A stretch of DNA of 31,314 nucleotides from a virus. Below, piece by piece: positions 5,076-31,314 of this stretch. Location of the stretch: positions 1 to 31,314 of the IMG/VR virus record IMGVR_UViG_3300020179_001525; one strand, written 5' to 3'. The notes below the pieces were generated by a model. It searched no databases, was not told where the DNA came from, and was given only the letters and a program-made list of their open reading frames with translations. Every line of letters starts with the position of its first letter. Position 1 is the first letter of the stretch. A program made the translations under genes and the position numbers.

Positions 5076-6254
5076 ATGCCTTTCCGTGTTCGTGTCCGAA
5101 ACTTTCAGTCGATCAAAGACGCCACGATTCGTGTTTCCGGCCTGACGGTAATCACAGGCCCGAACAATTCTGGCAAGACGGCGGCTTTGCGCGCCGTTCG
5201 TGGTGCGTTCACGAACGCACCCGCTGGCCCACTCGTCCGTAAAGGCGAGGCCCATTTGACCGTTGACCTGTCGTTCGACGATGGGCATACGCTCACTTGG
5301 GAAAAGGGCAACGAAAAACCCGAGGGCAAGGGCAAGGCGATCAATCGCTATGTCCTAGACGGCAAGGCGCTCGAAGGCGTCGGTCGTGGCGTGCCCCCCG
5401 AGGTTGAGGCTTTGGGCGTGCGCGAGATTAGCGCGGGTTCCGATGGCCTATGGCCGCAGATTGCTCGTCAGTTTGACGGCACGCTGTTTTTGGTAGACCG
5501 TCCGGGTTCCGTCGTGGCCGAGGCTCTTTCGGACGTGGAGCGCGTGGGCAAGTTGTCTGACGCGCTTCGGGCGAGTGAATCCGACCGCAGGACCATCGCT
5601 TCGGAAATCAAGGTGCGCCGTGCGGATATGACCCGCTTGCAAGAGCGTGCTCAGAAGTTCGACGGCTTGGACACCGTGTTAGAGGGCATCAACACGGTGG
5701 ACTTGAACGCGCTGCGAAATATGGCCCGCGAGATCGCCAGCCTGAAAGATTTAGCCGAAAGGCTCCGTAAATCCCGCGAGGATTTAGCGCCAATCGCGGG
5801 ATTTACGGCTAAAAGCGTCCCTGATTCGAGCGCGTGCTCGGCTAAAACCGCCGCCGACGAATCTCACGCCGCCGCCGCCCTCGCTGCCCGCCTCAAAAAC
5901 GCGCGTAGTAACTCACATAAGTATAATCTTCACGTCACGACGCCGCTTTTTTCTTTTTCTTTGTCCGGTTTGGAAGACTTGCGACGTCGCGCCCTCCTGA
6001 AAAAGACTCTGGAAAAAGACGCGCAGGATTTAGATTTACCGCCGTTGCCGAGTGCCGAGCGGATCGCCAAGTACCCTGCGGGCGTCGCCAAGATTCGGGA
6101 TTGGTCGATGCGATATGCGTCTGGTTTGACCGACGTGAATCTCTTGACGGATTCGTTGTCCGCATCCCGAGAACAACACGCCAACGCGGTGCAAGAAGCA
6201 CATGACGCTTTGCACGCGATGGGCGAGTGCCCGACTTGTGGGCACGCGACGTGA
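5076..6254 (+). CDS. SbcC/Rad50-like ATPase, N-terminal half ending at the zinc hook
   Basis: The 392-residue protein opens with the ABC-ATPase N-lobe typical of SbcC, Rad50 and RecF: FQSIKDATIRVSGLTVITG, then Walker A GPNNSGKT at 28-35. A charged coiled-coil region follows from about residue 160. The protein stops four residues after a CPTC pair (Cys385, Cys388), the Cys-x-x-Cys zinc hook found at the coiled-coil apex in SbcC/Rad50. There is no ABC signature, Walker B or H-loop; these are in a separate gene at 13971-14612. The split at the apex is the natural break for an antiparallel coiled coil. SbcD/Mre11 is encoded at 10632. The middle of the coil (residues about 250-300) is Ala/Ser-rich and poorly coiled-coil-like, and a 14-bp inverted repeat lies just before it. 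Confidence 0.85.
   Translation: MPFRVRVRNFQSIKDATIRVSGLTVITGPNNSGKTAALRAVRGAFTNAPAGPLVRKGEAHLTVDLSFDDGHTLTWEKGNEKPEGKGKAINRYVLDGKALEGVGRGVPPEVEALGVREISAGSDGLWPQIARQFDGTLFLVDRPGSVVAEALSDVERVGKLSDALRASESDRRTIASEIKVRRADMTRLQERAQKFDGLDTVLEGINTVDLNALRNMAREIASLKDLAERLRKSREDLAPIAGFTAKSVPDSSACSAKTAADESHAAAALAARLKNARSNSHKYNLHVTTPLFSFSLSGLEDLRRRALLKKTLEKDAQDLDLPPLPSAERIAKYPAGVAKIRDWSMRYASGLTDVNLLTDSLSASREQHANAVQEAHDALHAMGECPTCGHAT
5765..5808 (+). other. 14-bp perfect inverted repeat inside the SbcC N-half gene
   Basis: CCGTAAATCCCGCG at 5765-5778 is the exact reverse complement of 5795-5808, with a 16-nt loop. The surrounding sequence also repeats GATTTAG (5749 and 5781). It lies in an AT-richer coding patch and encodes part of the coiled coil. 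Such a stable stem inside a gene could affect translation or be a remnant of inserted sequence. Confidence 0.6.
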
Positions 6255-7441
6255 TTACTTGGGAATCCCTAGTAAGGGGACAAGAGTTCGATATCGACGA
6301 GCCTTTGTGGTCCGATTTGAACGCCACGCTCACTCAGGATCAAATCATCGACCTGCTTCAAGAAGCAGTCGAGAAGTCTGGTATGCCATATCCGATGCGG
6401 CATACGACGATTGAACAGGCTACGACTGATTTCTTGCGGCTGCGAAGTCTTGATACGCGGCTATTGTTGAAGCGCGAGCCATGGGAAACTGATTTCCCCT
6501 ACTCGTATCACAAACAGGATTTGTATATCGACCGTAGCAACGTCGGCGCACGTTCTTCTGACTACTTTCATCAGGCAAACAGAAACGCTACTGATCTTTC
6601 TTCATCACCTTCTGCTTTGCGGAGTTGGGCGACACCATCGCTGCGGAGGGGTTTATTCAAGGCTTTGTTTTCTTTCGGGGTAACAAAGATAACCCCTTCT
6701 GAGATCAGGACCGCAGGCTCTATTAGGAAGTATGTCGCCGCGCAGTTCCGGCCTTCGGCTGCGAAAGCCGTGTATGACCTTTATGGTGGTGGCCGTGTGC
6801 TGGACTTGTCTGCGGGTTGGGGTGATCGGTTATCAGCGGCGCTCGCGTGCGACAAGGTTACGCACTACACGGGCATTGATCCGAACTTCCGTCTGCATGG
6901 CGGCTATGCGGCCCAAGTCGAAGCCTACAATAGAAACCTCGACGGTGACCTGTTCGATTGGTTCAGCACGTTCACACCAAAGACGTGCAACCTGATATGC
7001 AGTCCTGCCGAGGACTTGACGCAGTTGGACGGGCCGTTCGATATTGCTTTCACTTCGCCGCCCTATTTCGACAAAGAACGCTACACCAAAGATCAAACGC
7101 AATCATGGATCAGATACAAGCGTTTGGACGCATGGTTGCAGGACTTTCTTTTCAAGACCTTAGCACTTGCTTGGGATAACTTGAAAGTTGGCGGGCACTT
7201 GTGCGTCAACATTGCAGACGTCCGTGCAGATGAGCGTGAAGAAGGCGGGTTTATCCGTTTGATAAACAGCATTTGTGATCCCATGAACGACTTTATCACA
7301 ACGCTGCCCAATGCCGTTTATCAGGGTGCGGTTGGATTGCGCTTACCTGTTCGTCCTAGTGATCGGCAAGCAATAGGCTCCGACGCCCTGTTTAGCAGTT
7401 TTTGCGAGCCGATTTGGGTCTGGAAAAAATCGGAGCCATAG
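6251..7441 (+). CDS. DNA methyltransferase with SPPY motif
   Basis: This 396-residue protein carries the SAM-binding motif I VLDLSAGWGDRL (residues 183-194), a motif-II-like acidic strand end THYTGIDPN, and the catalytic motif IV TSPPYF (Ser269-Tyr272), typical of enzymes that methylate exocyclic amino groups of adenine or cytosine. About 170 residues ahead of motif I are unrecognised and could hold target recognition or docking functions. GTG 6251 overlaps the preceding TGA by 4 nt and is preferred; an in-frame GTG at 6227 would add eight residues. It lacks the ESVFDLFGDS tail of the next three methyltransferases. Likely role: modification of phage DNA against host restriction. Target unknown. 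Confidence 0.8.
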   Translation: MITWESLVRGQEFDIDEPLWSDLNATLTQDQIIDLLQEAVEKSGMPYPMRHTTIEQATTDFLRLRSLDTRLLLKREPWETDFPYSYHKQDLYIDRSNVGARSSDYFHQANRNATDLSSSPSALRSWATPSLRRGLFKALFSFGVTKITPSEIRTAGSIRKYVAAQFRPSAAKAVYDLYGGGRVLDLSAGWGDRLSAALACDKVTHYTGIDPNFRLHGGYAAQVEAYNRNLDGDLFDWFSTFTPKTCNLICSPAEDLTQLDGPFDIAFTSPPYFDKERYTKDQTQSWIRYKRLDAWLQDFLFKTLALAWDNLKVGGHLCVNIADVRADEREEGGFIRLINSICDPMNDFITTLPNAVYQGAVGLRLPVRPSDRQAIGSDALFSSFCEPIWVWKKSEP

Positions 7442-7464
7442 AACCGCTCGAAAAACTTTCAAGT

Positions 7465-7486
7465 GATCTGCGCTATCGCGCAGATC
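7465..7486 (+). other. Intergenic hairpin before the Dam-like gene
   Basis: GATCTGCG and CGCAGATC form a perfect 8-bp stem with a 6-nt loop in the 88-nt gap between two methyltransferase genes. No T-run follows, so it is not a standard terminator. Both ends are GATC, the site of Dam-type enzymes, so methylation-sensitive control of the downstream gene is conceivable. Confidence 0.45.
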
Positions 7487-7529
7487 GCGTATTGAAACCG
7501 CACCCAAAAAATGCCCGAGGGTAATTCCA

Positions 7530-8546
7530 TTGAGCAACACGTTAGAAGCCCCTTTCCCATACTTCGGTGGGAAGAGTAAAGTAGCCGCTGAAGTGTGGCG
7601 TAGATTCGGGGATGTTCGATCTTACGTTGAGCCTTTTTTTGGCTCGGGTGCCGTTCTTCTAGGGCGTCCTTTACCGTTTCATGGCATTGAAACGGTCAAC
7701 GACAAAGATGCCCTATTATGTAACTTCTGGCGGGCTGTTCAGGCAGACCCCGCAGCGGTGGCGCATTTTGCGGATTGGCCCGTAAATGAGTGCGATCTCC
7801 ATGCTCGTCATTTATGGCTTGTTGAGCACAAAGAGGACATTACAGATCGGCTCATCCTCGATCCGGAATGGTTCGATGTGAAAGCCGCAGGTTGGTGTGT
7901 TTGGGGTATCTCCGCATGGATTGGCACGGGTTGGTGTACGGGTAATGGCCCTTGGACTCGTAAGGGGGATGGTTTTGGGAAAGTTAGTGGCGGCACGCAA
8001 GGCATAAAACGCCAGATTCCCCGTTTGAGCGGTACGCAAGGCATAAATTGCCAGATCCCCCAATATGGGGGATCTGGTAAAGGCGTTCTTAGATCATATA
8101 TGGGTAAAGACGCACTAACTCTTTACTTTAATGAGCTTGCCGCTCGATTGCGTAAGGTTCGCGTTTGCTCGGGTGATTGGACTCGTGTTACCGGAGATTC
8201 CGTCCCATTTGGTATGGGGGTTTGCGGGGTTTTCCTCGATCCACCCTATGACACGGGCACTATGGATTATGGTTCGGGTGGGATGGGCAATGGTATTGCA
8301 TCCCAAGTTCGTGATTGGGCCATAAAGTCCGGCACGCGGGATGATATGCGTGTCGCTCTTTGTGGATATGATGAGCACGATTCCCTGCTACGAGAAGGTT
8401 GGGTTCCGTATCGTTGGAAGGCTTCAGGCGGGTACGGGAATCAAAACAAAAAGGGGTACGAGAACGCAACCAAAGAGGTTATATGGTTCTCCCCGCATTG
8501 CATCAAACCGGAAGAATCCGTGTTCGATTTATTTGGTGATTCGTGA
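7530..8546 (+). CDS. D12-class (Dam-like) N6-adenine DNA methyltransferase
   Basis: The 338-residue protein shows the alpha-class order: PFPYFGGKSKVA at residues 8-19, the SAM motif YVEPFFGSGAVLL near residue 32, and catalytic DPPY at 237-240. D12-class enzymes such as Dam transfer a methyl group to adenine N6. The start is TTG 7530 with GAGGG about 9 nt upstream; no ATG or GTG fits the conserved N-terminus. Residues about 155-180 contain a two-copy repeat (GTQGI...QIP), a region that in this family lies in the variable DNA-recognition part. The protein ends in EESVFDLFGDS, shared with the two following methyltransferases but not expected in the family. The stop overlaps the next start (GTGA). 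Confidence 0.88.
   Translation: MSNTLEAPFPYFGGKSKVAAEVWRRFGDVRSYVEPFFGSGAVLLGRPLPFHGIETVNDKDALLCNFWRAVQADPAAVAHFADWPVNECDLHARHLWLVEHKEDITDRLILDPEWFDVKAAGWCVWGISAWIGTGWCTGNGPWTRKGDGFGKVSGGTQGIKRQIPRLSGTQGINCQIPQYGGSGKGVLRSYMGKDALTLYFNELAARLRKVRVCSGDWTRVTGDSVPFGMGVCGVFLDPPYDTGTMDYGSGGMGNGIASQVRDWAIKSGTRDDMRVALCGYDEHDSLLREGWVPYRWKASGGYGNQNKKGYENATKEVIWFSPHCIKPEESVFDLFGDS
7993..8061 (+). repeat. 39-nt tandem repeat encoding GTQGI...QIP units
   Basis: Two imperfect copies, 7993-8023 and 8032-8061, have a 39-nt period and encode 13-residue units GTQGIKRQIPRLS and GTQGINCQIPQYG. They fall in the recognition region of the D12 methyltransferase, where unit number could change by slippage. Confidence 0.7.
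8051..8077 (+). other. 11-bp perfect hairpin in the Dam-like gene
   Basis: CCAGATCCCCC and GGGGGATCTGG pair perfectly around a 5-nt loop (AATAT), directly after the tandem repeat. It encodes residues of the recognition region. The stem is strong enough to matter in mRNA or to promote slippage of the adjacent repeat. Confidence 0.6.
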
Positions 8547-8728
8547 CCCAAATCAGCAACAAAATCACTTTGAGTCATGGTTTCGGTGATAATCGAAACT
8601 CAGCGACGATCTACATCGGGGATTGCATCGAGTCTCTAAAGTCGATGCCCGAGAAATCAGTTCATACTTGCGTGACGTCCCCTCCGTATTGGGGTTTGAG
8701 AGATTACGGTCACGATGGTCAAATCGGC
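8514..8728 (+). repeat. Left-end repeat of methyltransferase pair, copy 1
   Basis: These 215 nt match 9584-9798 with three mismatches that I can see (8611, 8677, 8680). The unit covers the last codons of the upstream gene, the GTGA overlap and the first 62 codons of the methyltransferase. Confidence 0.95.
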
Positions 8729-9616
8729 TTGGAGGACACTCCGGAAGACTACGTCGCTAAGATAGTCGAGGTGTTCCGCGAAGTGCGGCGCGTTCTGCGG
8801 GATGATGGGACGCTGTGGTTGAATTTGGGGGACTCGTATGCAAGCAACTGGGGAATGGGCGCAAAACGCAAAAGTTCATGGTGGTCAACTCGCAGCGAGG
8901 ATTTAGAAGGCAAGGGTTGGGGAACCGTGGAAACCGCTATTCCGCCCAACTCGTTCAAGCCGGGCAGGCCAGATAGGTTGAAAGTCAAAGACCTCGTAGG
9001 CATCCCGTGGCGTGTTGCCTTCGCGTTGCAGGCTGACGGCTGGTATCTGCGGCAGGACATCATCTGGCACAAGCCGAACCCGATGCCGGAAAGCGTGACC
9101 GACCGCTGCACGAAGGCGCACGAGTACATCTTCCTGCTGGCGAAGTCGGCGCGGTACTACTACGACGCGGAGGCGGTGAAGGAAAGCGCCTCAAGTGCGC
9201 CGACGAAGCCGAGGGATAAATCCTCTGAGGGGTGGCACGACGGGTGCGGCACTAACAATTGCCAAACAGGAGAGCGCATCTGGGGCGACACGGGAACCCG
9301 CAACCGCCGCTCCGTGTGGACGGTCACGACCAAGTCCTATAAAGGCGCGCACTTCGCTACTTTCCCCGAAGAATTAATAGAGCCGATGATTCTCGCTGGA
9401 AGTTCAAATGACGGACTCGTGCTAGACCCATTTTCGGGTTCGGGCACGACGGGGGCGGTAGCCCTCCGTCTTGGCCGTAACTTTGTTGGTTGTGAACTAA
9501 ATCCTGAGTATGTAAAGTTAGCCGAATCTAGGATTCGTGGTGAATCCCCTCCGGTTTCTTCGGGTGAATCAGAGGAATCTAGTGAATCCGTGTTCGATTT
9601 ATTTGGTGATTCGTGA
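8543..9616 (+). CDS. Beta-class DNA methyltransferase, paralogue 1
   Basis: This 357-residue enzyme has catalytic TSPPYWGLRDYG (Ser46-Pro-Pro-Tyr49) ahead of the SAM-binding DPFSGSGTTG (295-304), the motif order of beta-class N4-cytosine or N6-adenine methyltransferases. Conserved intermediate blocks include GTLWLNLGDSY, DLVGIPWRVAFALQADGW and RQDIIWHKPNPMPESV. Two variable segments, about residues 98-145 and 210-265, differ from the next gene and probably set target specificity. GTG 8543 overlaps the previous stop by 4 nt. The C-terminal linker is Ser/Glu-rich and ends in SESVFDLFGDS. The first 62 codons and last 87 codons are almost identical in DNA to the next gene, while the middle has a different, GC-richer codon style. 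Confidence 0.92.
   Translation: MTQISNKITLSHGFGDNRNSATIYIGDCIESLKSMPEKSVHTCVTSPPYWGLRDYGHDGQIGLEDTPEDYVAKIVEVFREVRRVLRDDGTLWLNLGDSYASNWGMGAKRKSSWWSTRSEDLEGKGWGTVETAIPPNSFKPGRPDRLKVKDLVGIPWRVAFALQADGWYLRQDIIWHKPNPMPESVTDRCTKAHEYIFLLAKSARYYYDAEAVKESASSAPTKPRDKSSEGWHDGCGTNNCQTGERIWGDTGTRNRRSVWTVTTKSYKGAHFATFPEELIEPMILAGSSNDGLVLDPFSGSGTTGAVALRLGRNFVGCELNPEYVKLAESRIRGESPPVSSGESEESSESVFDLFGDS
9353..9616 (+). repeat. Right-end repeat of methyltransferase pair, copy 1
   Basis: These 264 nt match 10372-10635 with a single mismatch (9548 against 10567). The unit encodes the SAM-binding DPFSGSGTTG motif, the Ser/Glu linker and the SVFDLFGDS tail. Confidence 0.95.
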
Positions 9617-9798
9617 CCCAAATCAGCAACAAAATCACTTTGAGTCATGGTTTCGGTGATAATCGAAACTCAGCGACGATTTACATCGGGGATTGCATCG
9701 AGTCTCTAAAGTCGATGCCCGAGAAATCAGTTCATACTTGCGTGACTTCGCCTCCGTATTGGGGTTTGAGAGATTACGGTCACGATGGTCAAATCGGC
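9584..9798 (+). repeat. Left-end repeat of methyltransferase pair, copy 2
   Basis: Second copy of the 215-nt unit at 8514-8728. It overlaps the end of the right-end repeat copy 1, so the tail-coding 33 nt belongs to both repeats. Confidence 0.95.
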
Positions 9799-10635
9799 CT
9801 TGAGGACACGCCGGAAGACTACGTCGCCAATCTGGTCGAGGTGTTCCGGGAAGTGCGGCGGGTGCTGCGGGACGACGGGACGCTGTGGCTGAATCTGGGG
9901 GATTCGTATGCGAACACTGGCGCGGGAGATTTATCAAAGGTTGGAGGGTTCACCGGCCAGCGGATTCGAGCGCGATCAATCCCTGCTGGCCTCAAACCCA
10001 AAGACCTCGTCGGCATCCCGTGGCGCGTAGCATTCGCCCTGCAAGCGGACGGTTGGTATCTGCGGCAGGACATCATCTGGTCGAAGCCGAACCCGATGCT
10101 GGAAAGCGTGACCGACCGCTGCACGAAGGCGCACGAATACCTGTTTCTTTTGGCGAAGTCCGAGCGGTACTACTACGATGCCGCCGCTATTGCAGAGCCT
10201 GCGATCCACGCGGGCGCGACGGTTCTAAACAACAACGGTAAGAACGCGCAGATGGGCAAGCATGGACAGACACGCAGAGGGTTCTTGCGGCCGGATGGTG
10301 TGACCGTTGCCGAAACGCGCAACCGCCGTTCCGTCTGGACGATCACGACGAAGCCCTATAAAGGCGCACATTTCGCTACTTTCCCCGAAGAATTAATAGA
10401 GCCGATGATTCTCGCTGGAAGTTCAAATGACGGACTCGTGCTAGACCCATTTTCGGGTTCGGGCACGACGGGGGCGGTAGCCCTCCGTCTTGGCCGTAAC
10501 TTTGTTGGTTGTGAACTAAATCCTGAGTATGTAAAGTTAGCCGAATCTAGGATTCGTGGTGAATCTCCTCCGGTTTCTTCGGGTGAATCAGAGGAATCTA
10601 GTGAATCCGTGTTCGATTTATTTGGTGATTCGTGA
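9613..10635 (+). CDS. Beta-class DNA methyltransferase, paralogue 2
   Basis: The 340-residue enzyme is a tandem paralogue of the preceding gene, with TSPPYWGLRDYG at 45-56, DPFSGSGTTG at 278-287 and the same SESVFDLFGDS tail. Both catalytic motifs are intact, so both enzymes should be active. The variable segments are different: residues about 98-128 (GAGDLSKVGGFTGQR) replace a longer unrelated stretch, and residues about 195-240 (GATVLNNNGKNAQMGKHG) replace another. This points to a different recognition sequence. GTG 9613 overlaps the previous TGA. The next gene, SbcD-like, starts inside its stop codon in the same way. Methylation target cannot be told from sequence. Confidence 0.92.
   Translation: MTQISNKITLSHGFGDNRNSATIYIGDCIESLKSMPEKSVHTCVTSPPYWGLRDYGHDGQIGLEDTPEDYVANLVEVFREVRRVLRDDGTLWLNLGDSYANTGAGDLSKVGGFTGQRIRARSIPAGLKPKDLVGIPWRVAFALQADGWYLRQDIIWSKPNPMLESVTDRCTKAHEYLFLLAKSERYYYDAAAIAEPAIHAGATVLNNNGKNAQMGKHGQTRRGFLRPDGVTVAETRNRRSVWTITTKPYKGAHFATFPEELIEPMILAGSSNDGLVLDPFSGSGTTGAVALRLGRNFVGCELNPEYVKLAESRIRGESPPVSSGESEESSESVFDLFGDS
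10372..10635 (+). repeat. Right-end repeat of methyltransferase pair, copy 2
   Basis: Second copy of the 264-nt unit at 9353-9616. Its last 33 nt (10603-10635) are the third occurrence of the tail-coding sequence also found at 8514-8546 and 9584-9616. Confidence 0.95.
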
Positions 10636-19921: not shown

Positions 19922-20353
19922 ATGTCCGCGTCACTCGTCATATCGGAGTTCGTGTATCGGTCGGGTGTGCCCCCCGAGTATTTCACGTTCACGATTGGCG
20001 CGGACGCGACCACAGGCCGCGTGTACGTTCGTGAAATCACGGATCGCTACGGCATGGTGGTCAGCCCTTACACTCGATTGCCGCAATCAGTCACCGACGA
20101 CATTTGCGCGGCGACTTCTGAAGTGGAGTCGATCTTGGCCCTCGTAAGTGCAATCAACGGCATCCTAACTTTCACCGCCGAGACTTACAAGGACGTCGTA
20201 TTCGCCACGCCTTTGTCGAATACGAACTACCGCGTTCAACTCTCGCCGAGCATCTTCGCTCCGCTTCGTATCACTAACAAGACTATCACGGGATTCACCG
20301 TGCAGGCTGGCGCGACCATCACGGGTCAGGTCGGCTACGACGTCTTTATCTAG
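19922..20353 (+). CDS. Putative virion or fibre-type protein, 143 residues
   Basis: The C-terminal 65 residues (LTFTAETYKDVVFATPL, YRVQLSPSIFAPLRITNK, ITGFTVQAGATITGQVGY) are beta-strand rich and match a pattern common at the ends of phage tail fibres and decoration proteins, where a strand set ends in a GY/W-D-V strand. The N-terminal 70 residues (EFVYRSGVPPEYFTFTIGA) are unrecognised. It is the first gene with structural character after the replication block. ATG 19922 follows the previous stop directly. Assignment rests on a general pattern, not a specific family. Confidence 0.5.
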   Translation: MSASLVISEFVYRSGVPPEYFTFTIGADATTGRVYVREITDRYGMVVSPYTRLPQSVTDDICAATSEVESILALVSAINGILTFTAETYKDVVFATPLSNTNYRVQLSPSIFAPLRITNKTITGFTVQAGATITGQVGYDVFI

Positions 20354-20362
20354 GAGATTCGC

Positions 20363-20725
20363 ATGAAACTTCCCATTGAGATTGCTGCGCGCCGCCGTGC
20401 TAACTTTGACGCTCACGAAATCGGTCAGCCTGTTCGTGGCCCGCTTGAGACGTTGGATAGCGACGAGCCGTGGATGGACGACCATTTCACGCAGGAAAAC
20501 TTCGAGCAACTTCAAGACGCTCAGATGGATGGGGAACTCGGCCCCCCGCTCGATATGACCCGTATGGCGATGCTGAAGAAGTGGCGCTTTGCCAATCGCC
20601 GTGAGGCTCGTTTCGCCGAGGGCGATACGGCGGGTTTCGAGAAGTGGCTTAAGACGCAGCCCAAGTCCGTTCAAGACGATTGGGCCGCGAATAAAGAGAA
20701 GTACGGCGACAAGTTCAAGGGCTGA
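20363..20725 (+). CDS. Hypothetical protein, 120 residues
   Basis: ATG 20363 has a good AGGAG site. The protein is highly charged and probably helical, with an acidic middle (SDEPWMDDHFTQENFEQLQD) and a basic/acidic C-terminal part (KWRFANRREARFAEGD). No family was recognised. It sits directly before the Dps-like gene, so the two may be expressed together. Confidence 0.7.
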   Translation: MKLPIEIAARRRANFDAHEIGQPVRGPLETLDSDEPWMDDHFTQENFEQLQDAQMDGELGPPLDMTRMAMLKKWRFANRREARFAEGDTAGFEKWLKTQPKSVQDDWAANKEKYGDKFKG

Positions 20726-20745
20726 TACTTTCTAAGGGATGTGAA

Positions 20746-21591
20746 ATGAAGCGCAAGGCTTATCTCGATCCTGCGATCCGTGAGGAAGTGCTGCCGATGC
20801 TCCGCATTGTGCTGGCGATTCTTCGCGCGCAGTATTTGTCATACCAGACGAGCCATTGGCAGACTCGTGGTCCCGCGTACTACGGCAACCATTTGCTCTT
20901 TCAACGGCTTTATGAGGGCGTGCAGGAAGAGATCGACGCGATTGGCGAAAAGCTCGTGGGCTATTTCGGCATTGAGGCCGTTGACCTCGAAGTCTCTCTC
21001 AACATGATCTGCGATATGGTCGGTCGTTGGTGCTCGCACGAGTGCCACTTCCAGCGCGGCTTGACGTCCGAGGGCGAGTTGCAAGACGCACTCTCAATCG
21101 TGAGCAACAGTTGGCCGAACGAGAGATATCCGATGCCTTTGGGTTTGGACGATTGGTTGGCGGCTACGGCTAACGCCCACGAGTCGAATCAATATCTGCT
21201 TCAGCAGGTGTTGGGTGCGCCCGCTTCCGCGTGGCCTGCGGTCATGGGACGTCGCGCGGCTCATCCTGTCGCTCCCTCTGCCGAGGGACAATTCTTCGAC
21301 AATCCGCAAAAGCGCGAAACCCGCGAGTTCGCCGAATCAGGTGCGCCGACGAACGTGCCCTCTGTCGGCAAAGATTTCGCCAAGGAACACGGCGACGGTA
21401 AAATCATGCGCCAAGTACGCAAGACCCCGCCGACGCCTGCGGAGATTTTAGAAGAGCAGCCTGGTGCGGAGGGTGCGGCTACACTTAGCCGTTTGGTCGT
21501 AAAGTCCGAAGAGCCCAATATTGCGCCTGCCGCGAAAGCGAACCGCGCGCTCATGGCTTCTTGGCTGCGGGAAATCAATAGCCGCCGATAA
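20746..21591 (+). CDS. Dps/ferritin-like protein with long C-terminal extension
   Basis: Residues 15-75 carry the ferroxidase pattern of Dps proteins with exact spacing: His37, His49, Asp64 and Glu68 (separations 12, 15 and 4, as in Dps H31-H43-D58-E62), within SHWQTRGPAYYGNH and YEGVQEEIDAIGEKLVGYFG. Dps forms 12-subunit cages that oxidise iron and shield DNA. Helices continue to about residue 165 and include YLLQQVLGAP. From about 170 to 270 follows a Pro/Ala/Glu-rich, probably unstructured extension not found in ordinary Dps (about 160-190 residues), ending in RALMASWLREINSRR. ATG 20746 has AAGGGA upstream. Its place among structural genes raises the chance that it is a virion component or acts on packaged DNA. 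Confidence 0.8.
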   Translation: MKRKAYLDPAIREEVLPMLRIVLAILRAQYLSYQTSHWQTRGPAYYGNHLLFQRLYEGVQEEIDAIGEKLVGYFGIEAVDLEVSLNMICDMVGRWCSHECHFQRGLTSEGELQDALSIVSNSWPNERYPMPLGLDDWLAATANAHESNQYLLQQVLGAPASAWPAVMGRRAAHPVAPSAEGQFFDNPQKRETREFAESGAPTNVPSVGKDFAKEHGDGKIMRQVRKTPPTPAEILEEQPGAEGAATLSRLVVKSEEPNIAPAAKANRALMASWLREINSRR

Positions 21592-21605: not shown

Positions 21606-22832
21606 ATGTTCGCTAATCTGACGGAGGCGGTTAAACGCCGCATCTTGCAGGAGTTACGTTCGTTCTGGTCTTTGGACCCGATCTACCGTGATTCGTTAGT
21701 GCCGAACATTCAAGGCCGCTACTCGTTTCGAGAACGCCCCCAACAGGCGATCATCGTCAAGGGCGCGAGCGCGAACCCGCAAATCCTGAGTGCCGATCAC
21801 TATCAGGGTGTCGTCGTTTCGTACTGCAATCTTGCCCGCGTACTCGGCAAGAACGGTACGTCAATCGAATGGGTGCGCGAAGATGCGCTCGCTATTCAGC
21901 GCAACAACGGCGTATTCCCTTCGTTGCCCGGTGTCTACTACATAGAAATCAGACGTGAACTCTACGGCGAACCCACGCCTTCGGAGCAATACGTTTTTTA
22001 CGTTGACCCGCTGATTGAAATCCTCGATGAACGCCCACTAACGATGAACCCGCGTTTGTATGAGGTCGCGCAGGGGTCTTTTCATCCGGGAAGCCTTCGC
22101 GTTTATGAAATGCCCGGCAATATCTTGCTCTACGAAGGCATTAACTACACAGCAGACGCGACTAACGGCCAAATCACGCTCGCTCAACCGATTGCCTCCA
22201 ATACTTACTTATCCGTTGATTACCGTTATGCGGGCGAAAGCCGTGGACCTTTTCTGATCACGCAGAACGGCTCGAACAATCATGCAATTCCTGGCGTGGT
22301 GCTGGCCTTTGGCCGAAGGGTTCAAGACGGCGACATTATGACCGTCGTGGTTGGACGTACCCGCGAGGCTTGTGCCTTGGAGTACGGCGGGCGTTGGGAA
22401 CTCAACGTCGATATGGACCTGATGACCCGCGACGTTCTCGCTACGGGTGAGGTCACCGACCGGACGCTTTTGTTCCTGTATGCAGATTTGCGCGGGCGTT
22501 TATCCGGCGAGGGTATCGAGATCATTAACGTCAGCATGGGCGGCGAGGCCGAAGAAGCCTACGACGAAAATGCCGACGATTACTTCTACACGGCGTCGAT
22601 TAGCATGACCATCCAAACGGATTGGTCCATGCACTTCCCTCTGAATTGGGAAGCGAACCGCGTTATTCCCGGAACCGTAGCCGAGGACCAAGCCGTTGCG
22701 GGCTTGACCGACGATCAATTGTTCGATACCGGATCGCCGTCGCAGTTCTTCGTGTACCAGAACTTAAATCTCGTCGCCATCCGAGACCCGTTCTTTGCGA
22801 ACCGGAATCAGGCTTTCGAGATCATTCGATAA
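21606..22832 (+). CDS. Putative virion structural protein, 408 residues
   Basis: The N-terminus (RRILQELRSFWSLDPIYRDSLVPNIQ) resembles head-tail or baseplate-associated proteins that start with a helix. The body is beta rich. Residues about 163-206 (YEMPGNILLYEGINYTAD, NGQITLAQP, LSVDYRY) repeat the layout of modules in the sheath protein at 23989: strand, turn, Gly-x-Ile/Val-x-Leu, then a closing strand with Tyr-x-Tyr. The C-terminal half includes SISMTIQTDWSMHFPLNWE. No enzymatic motif was seen. It is the last + strand gene before the reversed cassette and its 3' end overlaps the minus-strand gene there by 11 nt. A neck, connector or baseplate role is likely but unproven. Confidence 0.6.
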   Translation: MFANLTEAVKRRILQELRSFWSLDPIYRDSLVPNIQGRYSFRERPQQAIIVKGASANPQILSADHYQGVVVSYCNLARVLGKNGTSIEWVREDALAIQRNNGVFPSLPGVYYIEIRRELYGEPTPSEQYVFYVDPLIEILDERPLTMNPRLYEVAQGSFHPGSLRVYEMPGNILLYEGINYTADATNGQITLAQPIASNTYLSVDYRYAGESRGPFLITQNGSNNHAIPGVVLAFGRRVQDGDIMTVVVGRTREACALEYGGRWELNVDMDLMTRDVLATGEVTDRTLLFLYADLRGRLSGEGIEIINVSMGGEAEEAYDENADDYFYTASISMTIQTDWSMHFPLNWEANRVIPGTVAEDQAVAGLTDDQLFDTGSPSQFFVYQNLNLVAIRDPFFANRNQAFEIIR

Positions 22833-23988: not shown

Positions 23989-26900
23989 ATGGCTTTCCCT
24001 AACGGTATCTACGCGCCTCCGGGCGTTTACACGCAGACCAATCTTCAGCCGCCGAATCAGGGCGCGGGTGCTGCTGCACGCCTGCCGCTGATCATCGGTC
24101 CTGGCTCTGAAATCCTCACGCAATCCTCATTGGAAATCGTGCGCGGTTCTTCCGCGTCGGTTGACCAGCGTGTTGTGCAGGAGGACGAGTCGGGTCGCGC
24201 TGTTGTAAATATCAGCCCTGCGGGACAAATCACGCTCGGTGCTTTCGACGGCACTTTAGACCGCGTTCAGGTCCGCAACTATCCCATCGTCTCCGGCAAC
24301 GGCTCGGGCACGACGGCGACCGATACGGCTTCTGTCGCCGTCACCGTCAACGGCATTCCCGTTGTCGTGCTCAACCTCGACGGTGCGCGCGGCATCCTTC
24401 GCCTGAGCGTGAAGCCTACGGCGACGGACGACGTGCGGGTGACGTATTATTTCAATCGCACGGACACGCTGATTACGGACACCGTAAGCGATCAGGTCAC
24501 GCCTGACGCTGGCGTGCTTTACGGCGCGGTCGGTCAAAACTACGACGTGGTAACGGGTTCTAACGATGAACTCGTCCTCACCGTGGACGATGCCACGGCG
24601 TTGACTGTTACGGTCGCGGCTTCTCCGGTCGGTGGTTGGACGGCGGCTCAAATCGCGGCGTTCGTCAATGGCGCGGCGACGGGCACGAGCCTTGTGGCGA
24701 GCACGGCGATCAACAACTTCGGCGTGACGGTCCTCAAACTCACCGCTGACCGCAACGTCTTGATCGGCAACGGTTCGCTGAACGCCACGCTCGGTTTCAC
24801 GACGGGTGCGTACACGGCGCGAAACAAGGTGTTCTACGTCTTCCAGCGTCCCATCGTGGACGGCTCGAATGGCGGTATCACCACGACCGATCCGGCTGAC
24901 GTGACGGTGAAGGTCAATGGCACGCAGGTCATCCCGACCGCCGTTGATGGTCAGTCCGGTGCCGTAACCCTCCCATTTGCTCCCCAAAGCGGCGCAACGG
25001 TCACGGTTCAATACCACTTCAACTCTTGGCAGGATACGTTCGACTATCTCGCCAATCGCGGCGTGACCGAAGTTACGCTTTGTGGCATTACGCCGGATCG
25101 TGATGATTACGTTGAGAACGTGGACTTCGTGCTTCAGGATGACCAAATCCTGTGGGGCACGGCGGTCACCGTTGCTTCCGAAGAGCACACGGCTGGCGGC
25201 GCGCTTTTCGGCGAGTCGCAGGTTCTCCCGACGTTGGTTGACGTTCGTGAGTATCTGGCCCCTTGCGAGGCTTTCGTCAATACGAGCGTAAATCCTGCGG
25301 TTGAGGATCGCGTTCAGTTCGTACTGCCGCTGACTCCTACGACGGGCAACGGTCGTAACAGCCCGCTCGGTTCGACGACGTTCAATCAGGTCGCTAATGG
25401 CCGCGTCGATTTGCCCACGAATCGTCCGGACCTCGTTTTCGCGTATTGGGGCTTTTCGCTTCAGGACGCGATTGAGCGTGGCCGTGTGACGGTCACTAAG
25501 GTCGAATCGGACACGGCGACGATTACGCTGTCCGAGCCTGTACCTGTCGGCGCGACGGTTTACGCGACGTTCTATTACAACACGATTCAGGACGTCGAAT
25601 ACACCGTCACGGCGCAAACGGCGGGTCCGTCCGGCGTCGGCACCTATTCGATCACGAATCAGGACGGCGCGCAGGTTTTGATTCCGTCCTTCGGTTCCAA
25701 GTCTGCGGGCTTGGCGACCGTGCAGATTCAGTTCCCCTCTGGCAGCGAGCGTTTGCCTGACGTTCGCTTCGAGACTCCCTACACGGCGACTGATTTTGAA
25801 GGTCCGGTTGCCGAGGATGTGACCGTCGAGTTCGCGCAGCGTGCGGCGACTCCGGCGAAATACACAGTCCCCTCGCACGGCCCTTACTACCCCGTCACGA
25901 CTGATTCTGACGTGTTCGATGTCGCGGTTGACGGCGGCACGGTTTCGGTCAATTTGAGCGACCCGACCGGAGCGGGCTGCGGCTTCTTCGCTCAGATCGT
26001 GGGCAATGAGATTTCCTACGATCCGGCGACGGGCGGCGCGACGTTTGAGATTGACGCGACGAACGACGCGATTGACTTGCTGGTTGACGGCGTTTTGATT
26101 CAGGCTTCGGCTGCCGCTAATGCCGCCGCTACGGTTGCCAATTACGTCACGGCGATCAACTCGGCTGCGTTGCTTGAGCCTCCCGTGCTGAAGGCGGTCA
26201 CGCGGTTCTCTAGCCCGCTGACGGTTTCGGTCAACGAGTACGACCAAATCACCGTTCACTACACGGGCGACGTATCCGGCGCTTCCGGCAATCTGACGGC
26301 GACGATTGCTGTGGGCACTTACAACACGGCGTCCGCTTTGGCCGCTGCTGTAAATGCGGCGCTTGTTGCGGCGATTGGCGTTGGCACCTTCAGCGTTGCG
26401 GTCACGGCGAATACGTCGAGTCAGTTGGAGTTCGCTCTTACGCTTGACCCCGTTGATGGCAATGGCTTCTTGGAGTTCATCACGACCGCCGCTGCCCGTG
26501 ATTTCTGCATCACCGCAGGCTTGAGCACGGCTGCGGCGGCTCTTGGAAATCAGACCAAGTTGTTCCAAGGCGAAATCGCTCGTGCGGTTTCCATCGGCGT
26601 TGCCCCGCTGCTTTATGACCGGATCGTGCTGCGTAACCGCATTGTTCCGGGTTCCGGCTCCATCGACGGCAAGTCCCAACTCGATCAATGTGAGTTGCAG
26701 ATTGTCGGCGGCACGGGCGCGAATCAGGCGGGCTTGGTTCCCCAAGAGCGCGGCTACGCGGGCCTTCGCGCTACGATCTTGGAGGCGACGGCTTTTGGCC
26801 GCGTGAGTTACGCTTCTCAGGCGGCGAATAGCCAGCCCGAATTGACGTTCTACGCGGCGGGCGGCGTCAACGACCAGAACAACGTGTTCAAGTTCACGAT

Positions 26901-28860
26901 GGACGGCCAGCCGTACACCGTGGTCTTCACGGATGCGGCGGGTGTGGCGATTCCGGTCGGCGGCTCTGCGGACGTTCCGTTCGGCCCCATCAGTCTTGTC
27001 AATTCGGTTCTTTGGCAGATTGACGATGCGATCACGGGCACGGGTTCCGTTCGACAGGAAGGCGCGGGTATCCGCTTCCGTTCCGGTTCTTCGGAAGCCT
27101 CGGCGCAAATCGTCATTGGCGACGGCAACGCGAACAGCACGCTCGGCTTCACGACGAACGCGGCTTTCAGCCGGACGGTCCTCACGCCGCAGGTTCTTGT
27201 TTCCGGCCTCATGGCGAACGCGAACGCGACTGTTGACCTCTACCTGCTGACTTTCGCAAGTCCTGACGCGGGTTACTTCACGGAGTTGGCGATTGCCAAG
27301 ACCGTGAGCGATCAGGCGGGCGCGGATTACCTCTATCTGCAAAGCCTCACGTTGGGCACGGCTTCCAGCCTTGCCTTTGAGTCTTGCACGGCGTTGCGTC
27401 CGGGCGTGGGCCTTGGCGTGGTCGTCGGTGACGGCAACGTGGGCGAAGCGGCTATCGACGGCTTCTTCGTCACGTCGAGCGATCCGGCCAACGGTTCCGG
27501 CTCGGTCAATAACTCGCTGCTCAACTCCGGCGACGGTCAAGACGGTCAGGTTGGTCAGACCTACCGCGACCTCGTGACGGGCCTGACTTTCACGGTTTTG
27601 GCTCGTGCGGGCGGCGCGGATTATCCTGCGGGCCAGAGCTTCACGTTCAAGGTCCGCGTCAATGCGACGTGTGACTCGAACCTGCCGAACTACGCCGTGC
27701 CGGGCATTCAACTCATCGTGGCGAACACGACGGGTGTGGCGGTGGGCGACACGGCGTTGGTCACGACGCACAATCGTAGCGGCGCGCAGCCTGCGGTGGG
27801 CGACGTTTACTACGTCACCTACAACTTCCGCAAGCAGGACTTCTCGGCGCAGTTGTATACGCGGCTTTCGGCGATTGAAGCCGCCTACGGCCCGAACAGC
27901 CCGACGAACCCTGTTTCGCTGGCGTCCTATTTGACGCTCTTGAACGGTGCGGTGTTGGTCGCGGTCAAGCAGGTTCCGAAAGACCAAGACAGCAACGCGG
28001 ACGGGACGAACGATTCTTCGTCCACGGCGGCGTATATCGCGGCGATTGACGATTGCGAAGGTGCGCTTCCGGGCGGCGTGTACCCTGATATTTTGGTCCC
28101 GCTCAAGGGTGACGACGCGACGCTGTTCTCGTATCTTGCCAAGCATTGCGACATTCAGTCGAGCATCCGTTACCGTGCGGAGCGCACGGCGATTTGCGGT
28201 TTCTCGGCGGGTACGCAGCCGCGTGACGCAGGCAACATCGCATCGAGTATCGCCCGTACCCGTATGCGTATGGTCTACCCCGACATCGCTACGTTGACGG
28301 TTTCTCGCGCCGATGCGACGACCGACTCCTACTTGGTGGACGGTACGTTCTTGGCCGCTGCTACGGCGGGTACTCGCGTGGCCTCGACGGTGGACGTTGC
28401 GACGCCTTGGACCAACACGCGCATCTTTGGCTTTGACCGTTTGGCCCGCCCGCTCGACGCGGTGGAGCAGAATCAGGTCGCGGTCAAGGGCGTGACGGTC
28501 ATTGAGAACCTCAACTCGGTGATCCGCATCCGTCAAGGCTTCACGACGGATATGAGCAACATCCTGACCAAGACGCCGACGGTGATTCAGATTGCCGACG
28601 AGGTTCAAAAGCAGGCTCGCGCGACGCTGGATCGTTTCGTCGGCGTGAAGTTCTTGCCTGGCATCACGAGCCAAATCGAGGGCCAACTTTCTTCCACGCT
28701 CAAGGACTTGGTGGCGGCGCAGATTATCACGGGCTTCACGGGCGTTTCGGCGCGGGTCAGCCCCGATGACCCCACGGTCTGCGAAGTCACGGCGGCAATC
28801 GCTCCGGTCTTTCCGTTACTTTACGTCGTCGTCACTTTCAACCTGCGCTCTTCGATCTAA
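23989..28860 (+). CDS. Giant tail sheath protein, 1623 residues
   Basis: The N-terminus (NGIYAPPGVYTQTN) and the C-terminal 240 residues (IASSIARTRMRMVYPDIATL, DGTFLAAATAGTRVAS, GVTVIENLNSVIRIRQGFTT, RATLDRFVGVKFLP) have the pattern of contractile tail sheaths. T4 gp18 is 659 residues, so this one has roughly 1000 extra, inserted between the ends. The insert is beta rich and repetitive: modules ending in Tyr-x-Phe/Tyr-Asn at about 116-160, 305-346 and 500-532, and flagellin-like TLGFTT motifs near 268 and 1051. These probably decorate the tail surface. ATG 23989 has GGAG 7 nt upstream. The coding strand seems to avoid TTA, CTA and TCA codons over 4.4 kb. A terminator follows directly, so the gene may be transcribed alone. 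Confidence 0.9.
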   Translation: MAFPNGIYAPPGVYTQTNLQPPNQGAGAAARLPLIIGPGSEILTQSSLEIVRGSSASVDQRVVQEDESGRAVVNISPAGQITLGAFDGTLDRVQVRNYPIVSGNGSGTTATDTASVAVTVNGIPVVVLNLDGARGILRLSVKPTATDDVRVTYYFNRTDTLITDTVSDQVTPDAGVLYGAVGQNYDVVTGSNDELVLTVDDATALTVTVAASPVGGWTAAQIAAFVNGAATGTSLVASTAINNFGVTVLKLTADRNVLIGNGSLNATLGFTTGAYTARNKVFYVFQRPIVDGSNGGITTTDPADVTVKVNGTQVIPTAVDGQSGAVTLPFAPQSGATVTVQYHFNSWQDTFDYLANRGVTEVTLCGITPDRDDYVENVDFVLQDDQILWGTAVTVASEEHTAGGALFGESQVLPTLVDVREYLAPCEAFVNTSVNPAVEDRVQFVLPLTPTTGNGRNSPLGSTTFNQVANGRVDLPTNRPDLVFAYWGFSLQDAIERGRVTVTKVESDTATITLSEPVPVGATVYATFYYNTIQDVEYTVTAQTAGPSGVGTYSITNQDGAQVLIPSFGSKSAGLATVQIQFPSGSERLPDVRFETPYTATDFEGPVAEDVTVEFAQRAATPAKYTVPSHGPYYPVTTDSDVFDVAVDGGTVSVNLSDPTGAGCGFFAQIVGNEISYDPATGGATFEIDATNDAIDLLVDGVLIQASAAANAAATVANYVTAINSAALLEPPVLKAVTRFSSPLTVSVNEYDQITVHYTGDVSGASGNLTATIAVGTYNTASALAAAVNAALVAAIGVGTFSVAVTANTSSQLEFALTLDPVDGNGFLEFITTAAARDFCITAGLSTAAAALGNQTKLFQGEIARAVSIGVAPLLYDRIVLRNRIVPGSGSIDGKSQLDQCELQIVGGTGANQAGLVPQERGYAGLRATILEATAFGRVSYASQAANSQPELTFYAAGGVNDQNNVFKFTMDGQPYTVVFTDAAGVAIPVGGSADVPFGPISLVNSVLWQIDDAITGTGSVRQEGAGIRFRSGSSEASAQIVIGDGNANSTLGFTTNAAFSRTVLTPQVLVSGLMANANATVDLYLLTFASPDAGYFTELAIAKTVSDQAGADYLYLQSLTLGTASSLAFESCTALRPGVGLGVVVGDGNVGEAAIDGFFVTSSDPANGSGSVNNSLLNSGDGQDGQVGQTYRDLVTGLTFTVLARAGGADYPAGQSFTFKVRVNATCDSNLPNYAVPGIQLIVANTTGVAVGDTALVTTHNRSGAQPAVGDVYYVTYNFRKQDFSAQLYTRLSAIEAAYGPNSPTNPVSLASYLTLLNGAVLVAVKQVPKDQDSNADGTNDSSSTAAYIAAIDDCEGALPGGVYPDILVPLKGDDATLFSYLAKHCDIQSSIRYRAERTAICGFSAGTQPRDAGNIASSIARTRMRMVYPDIATLTVSRADATTDSYLVDGTFLAAATAGTRVASTVDVATPWTNTRIFGFDRLARPLDAVEQNQVAVKGVTVIENLNSVIRIRQGFTTDMSNILTKTPTVIQIADEVQKQARATLDRFVGVKFLPGITSQIEGQLSSTLKDLVAAQIITGFTGVSARVSPDDPTVCEVTAAIAPVFPLLYVVVTFNLRSSI

Positions 28861-28881: not shown

Positions 28882-28921
28882 AAGGCCCCGTACACAAATT
28901 GTGTGCGGGGCTTCGTTTTTT
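28882..28921 (+). terminator. Rho-independent terminator after the sheath gene
   Basis: An 11-bp stem (28885-28895 with 28901-28911, one T-G pair) and a 5-nt loop AAATT are followed by TTCGTTTTTT. It starts about 20 nt after the sheath stop codon. Confidence 0.9.
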
Positions 28922-28962
28922 CGGCTATACCTGTTTGTTTGCAGCACTTCTTCGGTGGTCTA

Positions 28963-30147
28963 ATGAACCGTAAAGCCCGAGCCGCTGTTCCTGGTTTGCG
29001 ACAAGAGACGCAGTTCACTTGTTGTGCGACCTCTATCGCGGCTTGCTTACAGGCTCACGGTAAAGACCAAACCGAAGCCGACGTGAATAAGATTTTGGGC
29101 GCGAGTCCAATGTCCGGTGCGTCGTGGGAGTCTATTCTCGCCACGCTGCAATACTTCGGACTTCGTGGCAGTTTAGTCGTTCCCGCCACGGTCACCATGC
29201 TCAAGCAATGGACCGACGCCGGAACGCCCGTGATTATCGCTTGGAATCCCGAGGGTCGTCCGTGGTCGCACGCTTCAGTCGTCGCCGACGTGACTGATGG
29301 GCCGGACGGTCGTTACGTTCACGTCATGGATTCGAACATCCCGAATCCAGACAAGACGTTTCGGATTTTGCACGAGGACGAGTTTTGCGCGAAGTGGGGC
29401 GAAAAAGTCAGCGATAGCCTGATCGTTCGTCGCCCTGCTTGTGCGGTCGAGCGAGAGATTACGGTGGAAGGTCGTCAGGTTCGTGCTTCCAAACAAGCGG
29501 GCTTCTTAGACTTTTTCCGCAAAAAGCCTGAAATCGAAGAATCCCCCAAGTATCAGTTTAAGACTACTTCTAATGCCGTGCTGAATTCGGCGCTTGTTCA
29601 GAAGTTTACGCAGAAGTTCAAGAGCATGATAAATCCTTCGAGCGAAGGGTTTTCATTCAACCGCTATTACTTTAAGCGGTACGGCGACAAATGGTACGTC
29701 AGTTGGGAGCGTGAACCTGGCGCTCAAGGCGAATTCGCCAAGATGCTTCGTTCATTAGGTGGTGAGGAAGTTCGATCTATGCTCGCATCTGCTAGTCGTG
29801 TTCTCGCTCGCAAGGCCGGACTTGAAAACGGCGTTGTAGACCGCAAGACGATTCAGTTTGCCAATGACGTGATGCAGCGCAAGGGCTTGGACGGCAATGG
29901 CCGTTTCGAGAAGCCTACTCGCGGGTACACGCTGGCGCTTGATCTTCTAGCCGACTTTGGGATTGAACTCGGTGAGGTCGTGAGTTCGCATTTGTTCAGC
30001 CGTGAAAGCGGTTCGCTCAATGTCGAACTCGCCTTCACGAATCCGGCTAATTCATTCTCGCCCGTGCAGATTCGCAACACGATGCTGCACTTGCAATACT
30101 CGCGCTTAGATAATGACAAGTATGAAGTTCTGGCGTACTTGACCTAA
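28963..30147 (+). CDS. C39-like cysteine peptidase with unknown C-terminal domain
   Basis: The first 170 residues have the papain-like C39 pattern: VPGLRQETQFTCCATSIAACL with oxyanion Gln14 and catalytic Cys20, PWSHASVVADV with His103, and VHVMDSN with Asp about 123. C39 peptidases cut leader peptides at double-glycine-type sites. After a short basic linker (RASKQAGFLDFFRKKPE) comes a 220-residue domain (FKTTSNAVLNSALVQKFTQK, FSFNRYYFKRYGDKWYVSWE) that was not recognised. ATG 28963 was chosen because the conserved domain begins right after it. The gene stands alone after the terminator. A role in virion protein maturation or in the lysis/entry stage is possible. Confidence 0.75.
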   Translation: MNRKARAAVPGLRQETQFTCCATSIAACLQAHGKDQTEADVNKILGASPMSGASWESILATLQYFGLRGSLVVPATVTMLKQWTDAGTPVIIAWNPEGRPWSHASVVADVTDGPDGRYVHVMDSNIPNPDKTFRILHEDEFCAKWGEKVSDSLIVRRPACAVEREITVEGRQVRASKQAGFLDFFRKKPEIEESPKYQFKTTSNAVLNSALVQKFTQKFKSMINPSSEGFSFNRYYFKRYGDKWYVSWEREPGAQGEFAKMLRSLGGEEVRSMLASASRVLARKAGLENGVVDRKTIQFANDVMQRKGLDGNGRFEKPTRGYTLALDLLADFGIELGEVVSSHLFSRESGSLNVELAFTNPANSFSPVQIRNTMLHLQYSRLDNDKYEVLAYLT

Positions 30148-30201: not shown

Positions 30202-30867
30202 ATGCGTAAACTTGCTTCTAGTGACCGTTCGGCGTTGATCCGCTTGGCCTCGACGATGCCTGTGGGTGATGAAACCCGCCGCGCGATTCTTGCGGGCTTG
30301 ACTCAAACTGACGTATTCAAAGACTACTTCGATGAAGTTTGGGACGGCGGTAAGAAGAAAGTCTCGAACCCGAATTCTAAGACCAGAGACAAGTACCCTG
30401 AAGTATCCGTGTCTACGGCGATGAAAGATAAGAAGTCCTCTACCTACAAGCAGGTGATGGACGGTTTCAAGAAGTGGAACGAAGAGAGGAAGGGTGTAAA
30501 TAAGGAGCTGAAAAAAGATACTGCATCTAAAGCAATAGCTTTAGTCGATAAGGATTTGAAGAGTTTTATCTCGGAGAACCCTAATCCTAAGAATAAATAC
30601 AGCGCGCTTAAAAATATGCAAAAGAACTACATCAAGTTACAAAATAATAAGAAAGATCGTGGTGCGCTAATAGCGTATGTAGATGCCGTTGAGAGCGACT
30701 TAAAAGAACTAATGGATGATGTATCTCGTAAAAAAAACAATTATTCCCAAAGGGAGTCGCTTAGAAAAAGGGTAAGACTCACACTCGGCAGGGTGATTGA
30801 TGAGTATTCCGATAGAAGACCGGAACCGGAACCGGAACCGGAACCTGATTGGCGTACCAAATTCTAA
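30202..30867 (+). CDS. Protein with RKLAS...RRAILAGL N-terminal segment, AT-rich chimeric C-terminus
   Basis: The 221-residue protein starts at ATG 30202 with AGGGA upstream. Residues 1-33 (RKLASSDRSALIRLASTMP, then RRAILAGL) recur in the next gene, as does the block VWDGGKKKVSNPN and STAMKDKKSSTYKQVMDGFK. From about codon 95 the DNA turns distinctly AT-rich, with AAA/AAT/TTA codons, and the protein becomes Lys-rich and helical (KGVNKELKKDTASKAIALVD). The end is an EPEPEPEP run from a 6-nt repeat, then DWRTKF. The front half therefore seems native and the back half acquired. Short basic N-terminal segments of this kind occur on phage virion proteins, which suggests packaging or prohead targeting, but this is inference. 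Confidence 0.75.
   Translation: MRKLASSDRSALIRLASTMPVGDETRRAILAGLTQTDVFKDYFDEVWDGGKKKVSNPNSKTRDKYPEVSVSTAMKDKKSSTYKQVMDGFKKWNEERKGVNKELKKDTASKAIALVDKDLKSFISENPNPKNKYSALKNMQKNYIKLQNNKKDRGALIAYVDAVESDLKELMDDVSRKKNNYSQRESLRKRVRLTLGRVIDEYSDRRPEPEPEPEPDWRTKF
30820..30845 (+). repeat. CCGGAA hexanucleotide repeat
   Basis: Four CCGGAA copies plus CC encode Pro-Glu dipeptides near the end of the preceding protein. Slippage could change tail length in steps of two residues. Confidence 0.85.
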
Positions 30868-30951
30868 ACCGAGATCATCTGAGTACCGCTAACACGGCTA
30901 TCGCATGGACGATGGTTAGTGCTGTTGAAATCTCCGAAACCAAAAGGTTTC

Positions 30952-31314
30952 ATGCGTAAACTTGCTTCCCATGACCGTTCTACGTTGATCCGCTTGGCAT
31001 CGACGATGCCGAAGGGCAACGTCACTCGCCGCGCGATTCTCGCGGGCTTGTCCCGCCTCGCTGAAGAAGGCGAGGGCGAAGCCAAGCCCAAGGGCAAAGG
31101 TCCGGGCAAGGACTTCATTGAATACATGAAGGAAGTTTGGGACGGCGGTAAGAAGAAAGTCTCGAACCCGAATCCTGATTCTCGAAAGACCTATCCTGAA
31201 GTCGCCGTGTCTACGGCGATGAAGGATAAGAAGTCCTCTACCTACAAGCAGGTGATGGACGGCTTCAAGAAGTGGACTGAAGAGAAGAAGAACAAGGATA
31301 AGTCTGAAGGTAAG
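30952..31314 (+). CDS. Paralogue of the preceding gene (3' partial)
   Basis: ATG 30952 follows AAAGG and the frame stays open for 121 codons to the window end. The first 33 residues (RKLASHDRSTLIRLASTMP, RRAILAGL) and the block after residue 64 (VWDGGKKKVSNPN, VSTAMKDKKSSTYKQVMDGF) repeat the gene at 30202 with few changes. Between them lies an extra 20-residue Glu/Gly/Lys-rich stretch (EEGEGEAKPKGKGPGK). Codon use stays GC-rich throughout, unlike the back half of the first copy, so this copy looks closer to the ancestral form. The block VWDGGKKKVSNPN...YPEVAVSTAMKD resembles small phage or viral DNA-binding (HMG- or YL-type) sequences only vaguely; no family is claimed. Confidence 0.8.
   Translation, partial: MRKLASHDRSTLIRLASTMPKGNVTRRAILAGLSRLAEEGEGEAKPKGKGPGKDFIEYMKEVWDGGKKKVSNPNPDSRKTYPEVAVSTAMKDKKSSTYKQVMDGFKKWTEEKKNKDKSEGK

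Follow-up and report, generated by a model that had tools for sequence, protein, structure and literature searches.

The DNA considered here is a stretch of 31,314 nucleotides from an uncultured, large tailed phage (hereafter, the window), for which no close known phage was found, a megablast search against 50,697 phage records giving zero matches. On its plus strand it contains an open reading frame of 281 aa (20746-21591, with the ATG at 20746 and the stop at 21591), which a preliminary description, made from the letters alone, had read as a Dps/ferritin-like protein with a long extension. The locus raises the question of whether this protein is a Dps-type ferroxidase and, if it is, what could join it to the assembly of the phage particle.

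Identification of the Dps domain

Residues 1-158 of the protein are a Dps-type miniferritin domain, by homology, fold and conserved metal ligands, and the Dps/ferritin-like identity first proposed is one on which phmmer, the profile search, PHROG, AlphaFold and Foldseek agree. Precisely, the similarity of the domain to the PDB Dps 2vxx was above chance (phmmer, E 4.9e-8), the profile search against solved structures returned a Dps match at E 7.7e-10, and the 281-aa protein matched the Dps-like PHROG family phrog_3636 at E 2.4e-9. The Pfam Ferritin family scored 14.2 bits against the same protein, under the cut-off of 24.5 bits, and matches 14 of the 16 members of the phage Dps family. The sole match to the Dps domain in the genome collection was L045, a phage contig in an Actinomycetota MAG.

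A single-chain AlphaFold model was built from 12 homologues. In this model the helices A, B, BC, C and D correspond to residues 9-39, 43-74, 81-95, 101-122 and 134-157, hence a four-helix bundle in which a further short helix lies between B and C, and the pLDDT of the domain is mostly 85-94, with lower values in the A-B turn. The preliminary description had set the four-helix bundle beforehand as the check on its own assignment, and the bundle was present in the AlphaFold model and in the Foldseek comparison. The best 50 Foldseek matches in the PDB were all Dps, with a TM-score by target of up to 0.79 and a probability of 1.00 throughout, although the best E was only 1.9e-3; these modest E-values are probably due to the 120 query residues that are poorly modelled. 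The coordinates of the gene, of its parts and of its neighbours are reported in Table 1.

Table 1. Features at and around the Dps-tail gene, in positions of the window
Feature	Position	Strand	Evidence or remark
Upstream gene, weak tail-fibre-like match	19922..20353	+	phrog_3484, E 7.7e-5
Gene directly upstream, 120 aa, carrying a repeatable FEKWL module	20363..20725	+	
Ribosome-binding-like AAGGGA (AGGGA-type), 6 bases 5' of the ATG	20734..20739	+	read from the sequence
CDS: Dps domain, linker and conserved tail module	20746..21591	+	homologues with the same architecture
Dps domain, residues 1-158	20746..21219	+	AlphaFold, Foldseek PDB, phmmer
His37 codon, ferroxidase ligand (equivalent to E. 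coli Dps His51)	20854..20856	+	invariant, 16/16
His49 codon (equivalent to E. coli His63)	20890..20892	+	invariant, 16/16
Gln53 codon, fifth canonical ligand position, non-acidic	20902..20904	+	
Asp64 codon (equivalent to E. coli Asp78; His in the closest solved relatives)	20935..20937	+	invariant, 16/16
Glu68 codon (equivalent to E. coli Glu82)	20947..20949	+	invariant, 16/16
Variable linker, residues 159-175	21220..21270	+	dN/dS 0.36; insertions in relatives
Conserved tail module, residues 176-281	21271..21588	+	APSAEGxFxDNP...PPTPxEI...EPGG...STLNR...MAAWL; also on non-Dps proteins
Next gene, 408 aa, no family match, syntenic with Dps	21606..22832	+	61-89% identical in relatives
Tail sheath protein, 1623 aa	23989..28860	+	phrog_2839, E 1.1e-22

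Ferroxidase site

His37, His49, Asp64 and Glu68 do lie at the positions and with the Dps spacing attributed to them, and these four residues, together with the adjacent Trp38, are unchanged in all the 16 homologues found. The loose pattern H-x11-H-x14-D-x3-E has a single occurrence, at His37-Glu68, in the 21,689 residues of all the window ORFs of at least 60 aa. The wording "complete ferroxidase centre" was, however, too strong. In fact, a fifth, acidic ligand belongs to the canonical Dps centre (Asp or Glu, residue 67 by the customary Dps numbering; PMC6675082), and the corresponding residue is here Gln53, so that four of the five canonical ligands are present. Across the 16 homologues this position is occupied by Q in six cases, E in five, A in three, D in one and N in one, and it is hence acidic in 6/16.

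To judge from these residues, site A of the phage ferroxidase centre looks intact and site B looks weakened. Since the fifth ligand is Gln, the catalysis of Fe(II) oxidation by the phage Dps domain is uncertain; the invariance of the four ligands and of the adjacent Trp in 16 homologues argues that the metal site is kept. Other residues are also invariant: E109, Q113, D135, D136, T141, H145, E146 and Y150.

Linker and conserved tail module

A disordered extension of 110 residues had been proposed after the Dps domain. The extension is indeed modelled by AlphaFold with low confidence (pLDDT 32-59), but most of it, residues 176-281, is a conserved module, kept in every fused homologue found and with invariant F, P, N, PP, EI, PG and TL positions in an alignment of 11 sequences. 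Between the window and an 85%-identical relative, dN/dS was ~0.09 for the tail module, 0.06 for the Dps domain and 0.36 for the 17-residue linker, values to be read as rough, with dS near saturation. By these ratios, the tail module is under strong purifying selection and the linker evolves fast. With zero matches to the module in Pfam or in PHROGs, it appears from the sequence comparisons to be a previously undescribed, phage-specific and strongly conserved module.

Within the linker, L012, L013, L014, L016 and L051 carry domain insertions of roughly 70-280 aa, for which there was no confident Pfam match; one inserted domain is common to L014 and L016, and another has a copy on a different protein. 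The prohead-protease families S77 and S78 were not found in the relatives, in a search part of which had no positive control, and a putative prohead-protease motif ([ST]xE, then G) at the boundary between linker and tail is absent in L009 and L011.

Fused and separate forms

The fusion of Dps domain and tail module was found in 14 distinct phage homologues. We searched the whole records of 13 relatives and of the window with a tail profile, and each record contained exactly one copy of the tail module. In these searches and in a wider scan with a four-row tail alignment, all the records of at least 100 kb that have the tail also hold a Dps domain (G005, G008, G010, G011, G013, G014 and G016; G009 and G012, near-duplicates of G010 and G008, respectively, were seen as fused loci).

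The two parts also occur separately. In a 485-kb phage (LR745208, G013) the tail belongs to a protein of 244 aa that begins with another domain in place of Dps (L033:7797-8531), and a free Dps gene of 161 aa lies ~93 kb from it. In the 266-kb contig G014 the tail is likewise on a non-Dps protein, with a separate Dps, bearing a different extension, ~87 kb distant. A 5-kb contig fragment encodes a tail protein of 155 aa that lacks any Dps part. Such a pattern, in which Dps and tail are either fused or separate, is a usual sign of a functional partnership.

In the Dps tree all the fused forms fall to one side of a branch that has weak support; in the tail tree the fused L045 clusters with the unfused tails, and because of this neither a single fusion event nor its direction can be claimed. 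We also considered the tail as a general capsid-targeting cargo tag, of the type of the T4 internal proteins, and this was ruled out in its simple form by the one copy per record. Being single-copy, the tail resembles a fused partner protein more than a general cargo tag.

Gene neighbourhood

In the window the Dps-tail gene is located between clamp-loader and sigma-factor genes, on one side, and the tail sheath gene, on the other, and ends 14 bases before the gene for the 408-aa protein, whose AlphaFold model has a mean pLDDT of 37.8. The order clamp loader, sigma factor, Dps, 408-aa protein and tail sheath is kept in ~10 relatives. To place the gene among structural genes, as the preliminary description did, was hence roughly right; in relatives, the gene has terminase and portal genes beside it.

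Several genomes have the Dps-tail gene within the morphogenesis cluster. In G010 the genes run terminase, 187-aa protein, small protein and portal, with Dps-tail directly after, and in L045, the phage contig from an Actinomycetota bin, terminase and portal come within 6 kb after Dps-tail. The distance between tail and portal is ~7-22 kb in G005, G011, G013, G014 and G016 (7 kb in G016), and Dps-tail is ~20 kb from the terminase gene in G005 and G011. As for G013 and G014, ~19 kb separate the portal gene from the gene of the tail protein without Dps, which directly precedes that of the 187-aa protein, while 65-70 kb separate the free-standing Dps from the terminase gene. What follows the assembly cluster is therefore the tail module rather than the Dps domain, since in these two genomes the tail is near the portal gene and the free Dps is far. 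In G008 a contig of 297 kb has the tail at one end and the assembly cluster at the other, and the two would be near to each other only if the genome were circular.

Two other observations concern these neighbourhoods. The free Dps genes of G013 (L034) and G014 (L066) are near GroEL-like chaperonin and tail-fibre-like genes, which were identified by eye. A family of proteins of 187-188 aa (L054, L033 and L045), without any PHROG match, is encoded either immediately downstream of the tail protein that lacks Dps or in the interval from terminase to portal.

Comparison with known Dps proteins

The closest solved structures, by both sequence and fold, are the cyanobacterial DpsA/Dps4 proteins (2vxx of T. 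elongatus, 5hjh of N. punctiforme and 6lkp of Thermoleptolyngbya), which have the same helix order as the phage Dps and, like it, His and Glu ligands. The fifth-ligand position is non-acidic in both, being Asn67 in Dps4 and Gln53 in the phage. The cyanobacterial proteins have a His-type centre, with His78 instead of Asp (PMC6675082), whereas the phage protein retains the canonical Asp64 and adds the 120-residue extension.

Free-standing Dps proteins are already known in phages, namely in Gratiaviridae and other gut phages (PMC8008677), in Lactobacillus phages (PMC6669764) and in the Campylobacter phage CPT_0123 (PMC2853527). The Dps proteins of GAP52 (Cronobacter) and LAh_9 (Aeromonas) have the early helices and the ligands in common with the Dps of the window. 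Unlike the latter, the free-standing phage Dps proteins that we examined are short and single-domain, are encoded in regions of nucleotide or DNA metabolism and are without the tail module. Among the BFVD models, large proteins of uncultured Caudovirales matched the Dps model with a Foldseek probability of 1.00, among them entries deposited as "Prohead protease" (A0A6J7WPK9, A0A6J7XDU5) and "ParB/Sulfiredoxin" (A0A6J5LAB8); on these fold matches, there may be other phage Dps proteins with several domains. The open-access literature searched contained no phage Dps that is associated with the virion or fused to an assembly module and, although phage Dps proteins as such are known, their fusion to the tail appears to be undescribed.

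Like the cargo ferritins of encapsulins, the phage protein joins a ferritin-like enzyme to a C-terminal element, a putative means of directing the enzyme to an icosahedral shell. The phage tail differs from the cargo element in being ~105 aa in length, single-copy and present also on other proteins.

Proposed role and alternative explanations

We consider the chances about even that a Dps-type ferroxidase has been recruited to virion morphogenesis by means of the fused, phage-specific tail module. By homology, the Dps domain is predicted to form the usual 12-subunit cage and, where two subunits meet as a dimer, to oxidise Fe(II) with either H2O2 or O2. The tail module, as its location, its conservation and its fused or split occurrence suggest, would dock Dps to a component of the assembly machinery or of the virion, and through this docking iron and peroxide would be removed where the phage DNA is packaged or carried. 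An association of the Dps-tail protein with the virion is suggested by the gene and the tail tracking the head/tail cluster, and by the presence of the tail also on a non-Dps protein there. More tentatively, and as something possible rather than probable, a family of large tailed phages would build a miniferritin cage into or onto its virion via the fused docking module, in such a way that the particle carries an iron-oxidising antioxidant protecting the packaged DNA or acting at entry.

The neighbourhood fits a virion part as well as it fits a late non-virion protein, and gene position alone cannot separate the two. The protein could thus be a soluble Dps that detoxifies iron and peroxide in the host cytoplasm, with a tail that binds a host factor or a non-virion phage factor and a gene position reflecting late expression only. 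This is the explanation suggested by the Dps genes of Cronobacter phage GAP52 and Aeromonas phage LAh_9, which sit among nucleotide-metabolism genes, by the proposal that other phage Dps proteins help the host to tolerate oxidative stress (PMC8008677; PMC6669764), and by the two relatives in which Dps is free-standing and ~65 kb or more from the terminase gene. We hold it nonetheless somewhat doubtful, as 14 phages have the fusion to a strongly conserved module that tracks the head/tail cluster.

It is unlikely, in our view, that the protein is a structural or assembly protein that has taken over the Dps cage or helical bundle for its scaffold and in which the metal chemistry is secondary or lost. 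Gln53 in place of an acidic fifth ligand, at a position that varies, a linker with room for inserted domains as long as ~280 aa and a gene placed within the morphogenesis cluster would all suit a scaffold, but the four remaining ligands and the neighbouring Trp are unchanged throughout the 16 homologues. Least probable is a Dps that condenses the phage DNA, for packaging or in the cell, a help in DNA condensation having been one of the roles first suggested for this protein. Apart from the membership of the Dps family and the position of the gene beside packaging genes in L045 and G010, the data are against it: the Dps domain is acidic (pI 5.0 and net charge -8 in the window, with charges from -9 to +2 among relatives), it has just a short basic N-terminus and no long lysine-rich arm, and the tail has a charge of +1 in the window and of +2 in the closest relative, against -9 to -15 in the other relatives measured. 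The suggestion is hence poorly supported.

As regards the proposed recruitment to morphogenesis, phage Dps proteins have so far been read as aids to host stress tolerance, and the Dps domain is here joined to a module of the assembly region. The fused or split pattern makes a possible functional link between an antioxidant cage and phage assembly directly testable, and the tail is a new module to seek in the virions of large phages.

Other features of the window and of its relatives

A module of ~30 aa (LTxSDRKALIRLASTLPxGSxERRAILAGL) is encoded in the window within 30202-30867 and 30919-31314 and was found in 29 proteins of related loci, near the start, the middle or the end of many otherwise unrelated proteins; a similar module, LIRLAHxxPELRxxLLPLLKEA, is present in G010, G013, G014 and L045. 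This recurrent module could be a shared sorting tag. Two copies of it are in a 476-aa protein (L036:3824-5254) that matches the Fusellovirus VP2 capsid family at E 1.1e-7, a match possibly due to low-complexity basic sequence.

The window also encodes a RecA/UvsX-like recombinase split by a LAGLIDADG intein (2155-4698), and an intein-like insert is present in the L045 terminase too. Four consecutive DNA methyltransferase-like genes are located at 6227-10635, and the family matches of two of these closely resemble each other. The open frame of 1476 aa antisense to the tail-sheath gene (24256-28686, minus strand) is probably a by-product of composition. Lastly, a C39-like cysteine peptidase, whose C-terminal half is mostly unshared, is encoded at 28903-30147, and has homologues close to Dps in several relatives, the 485-kb phage among them.
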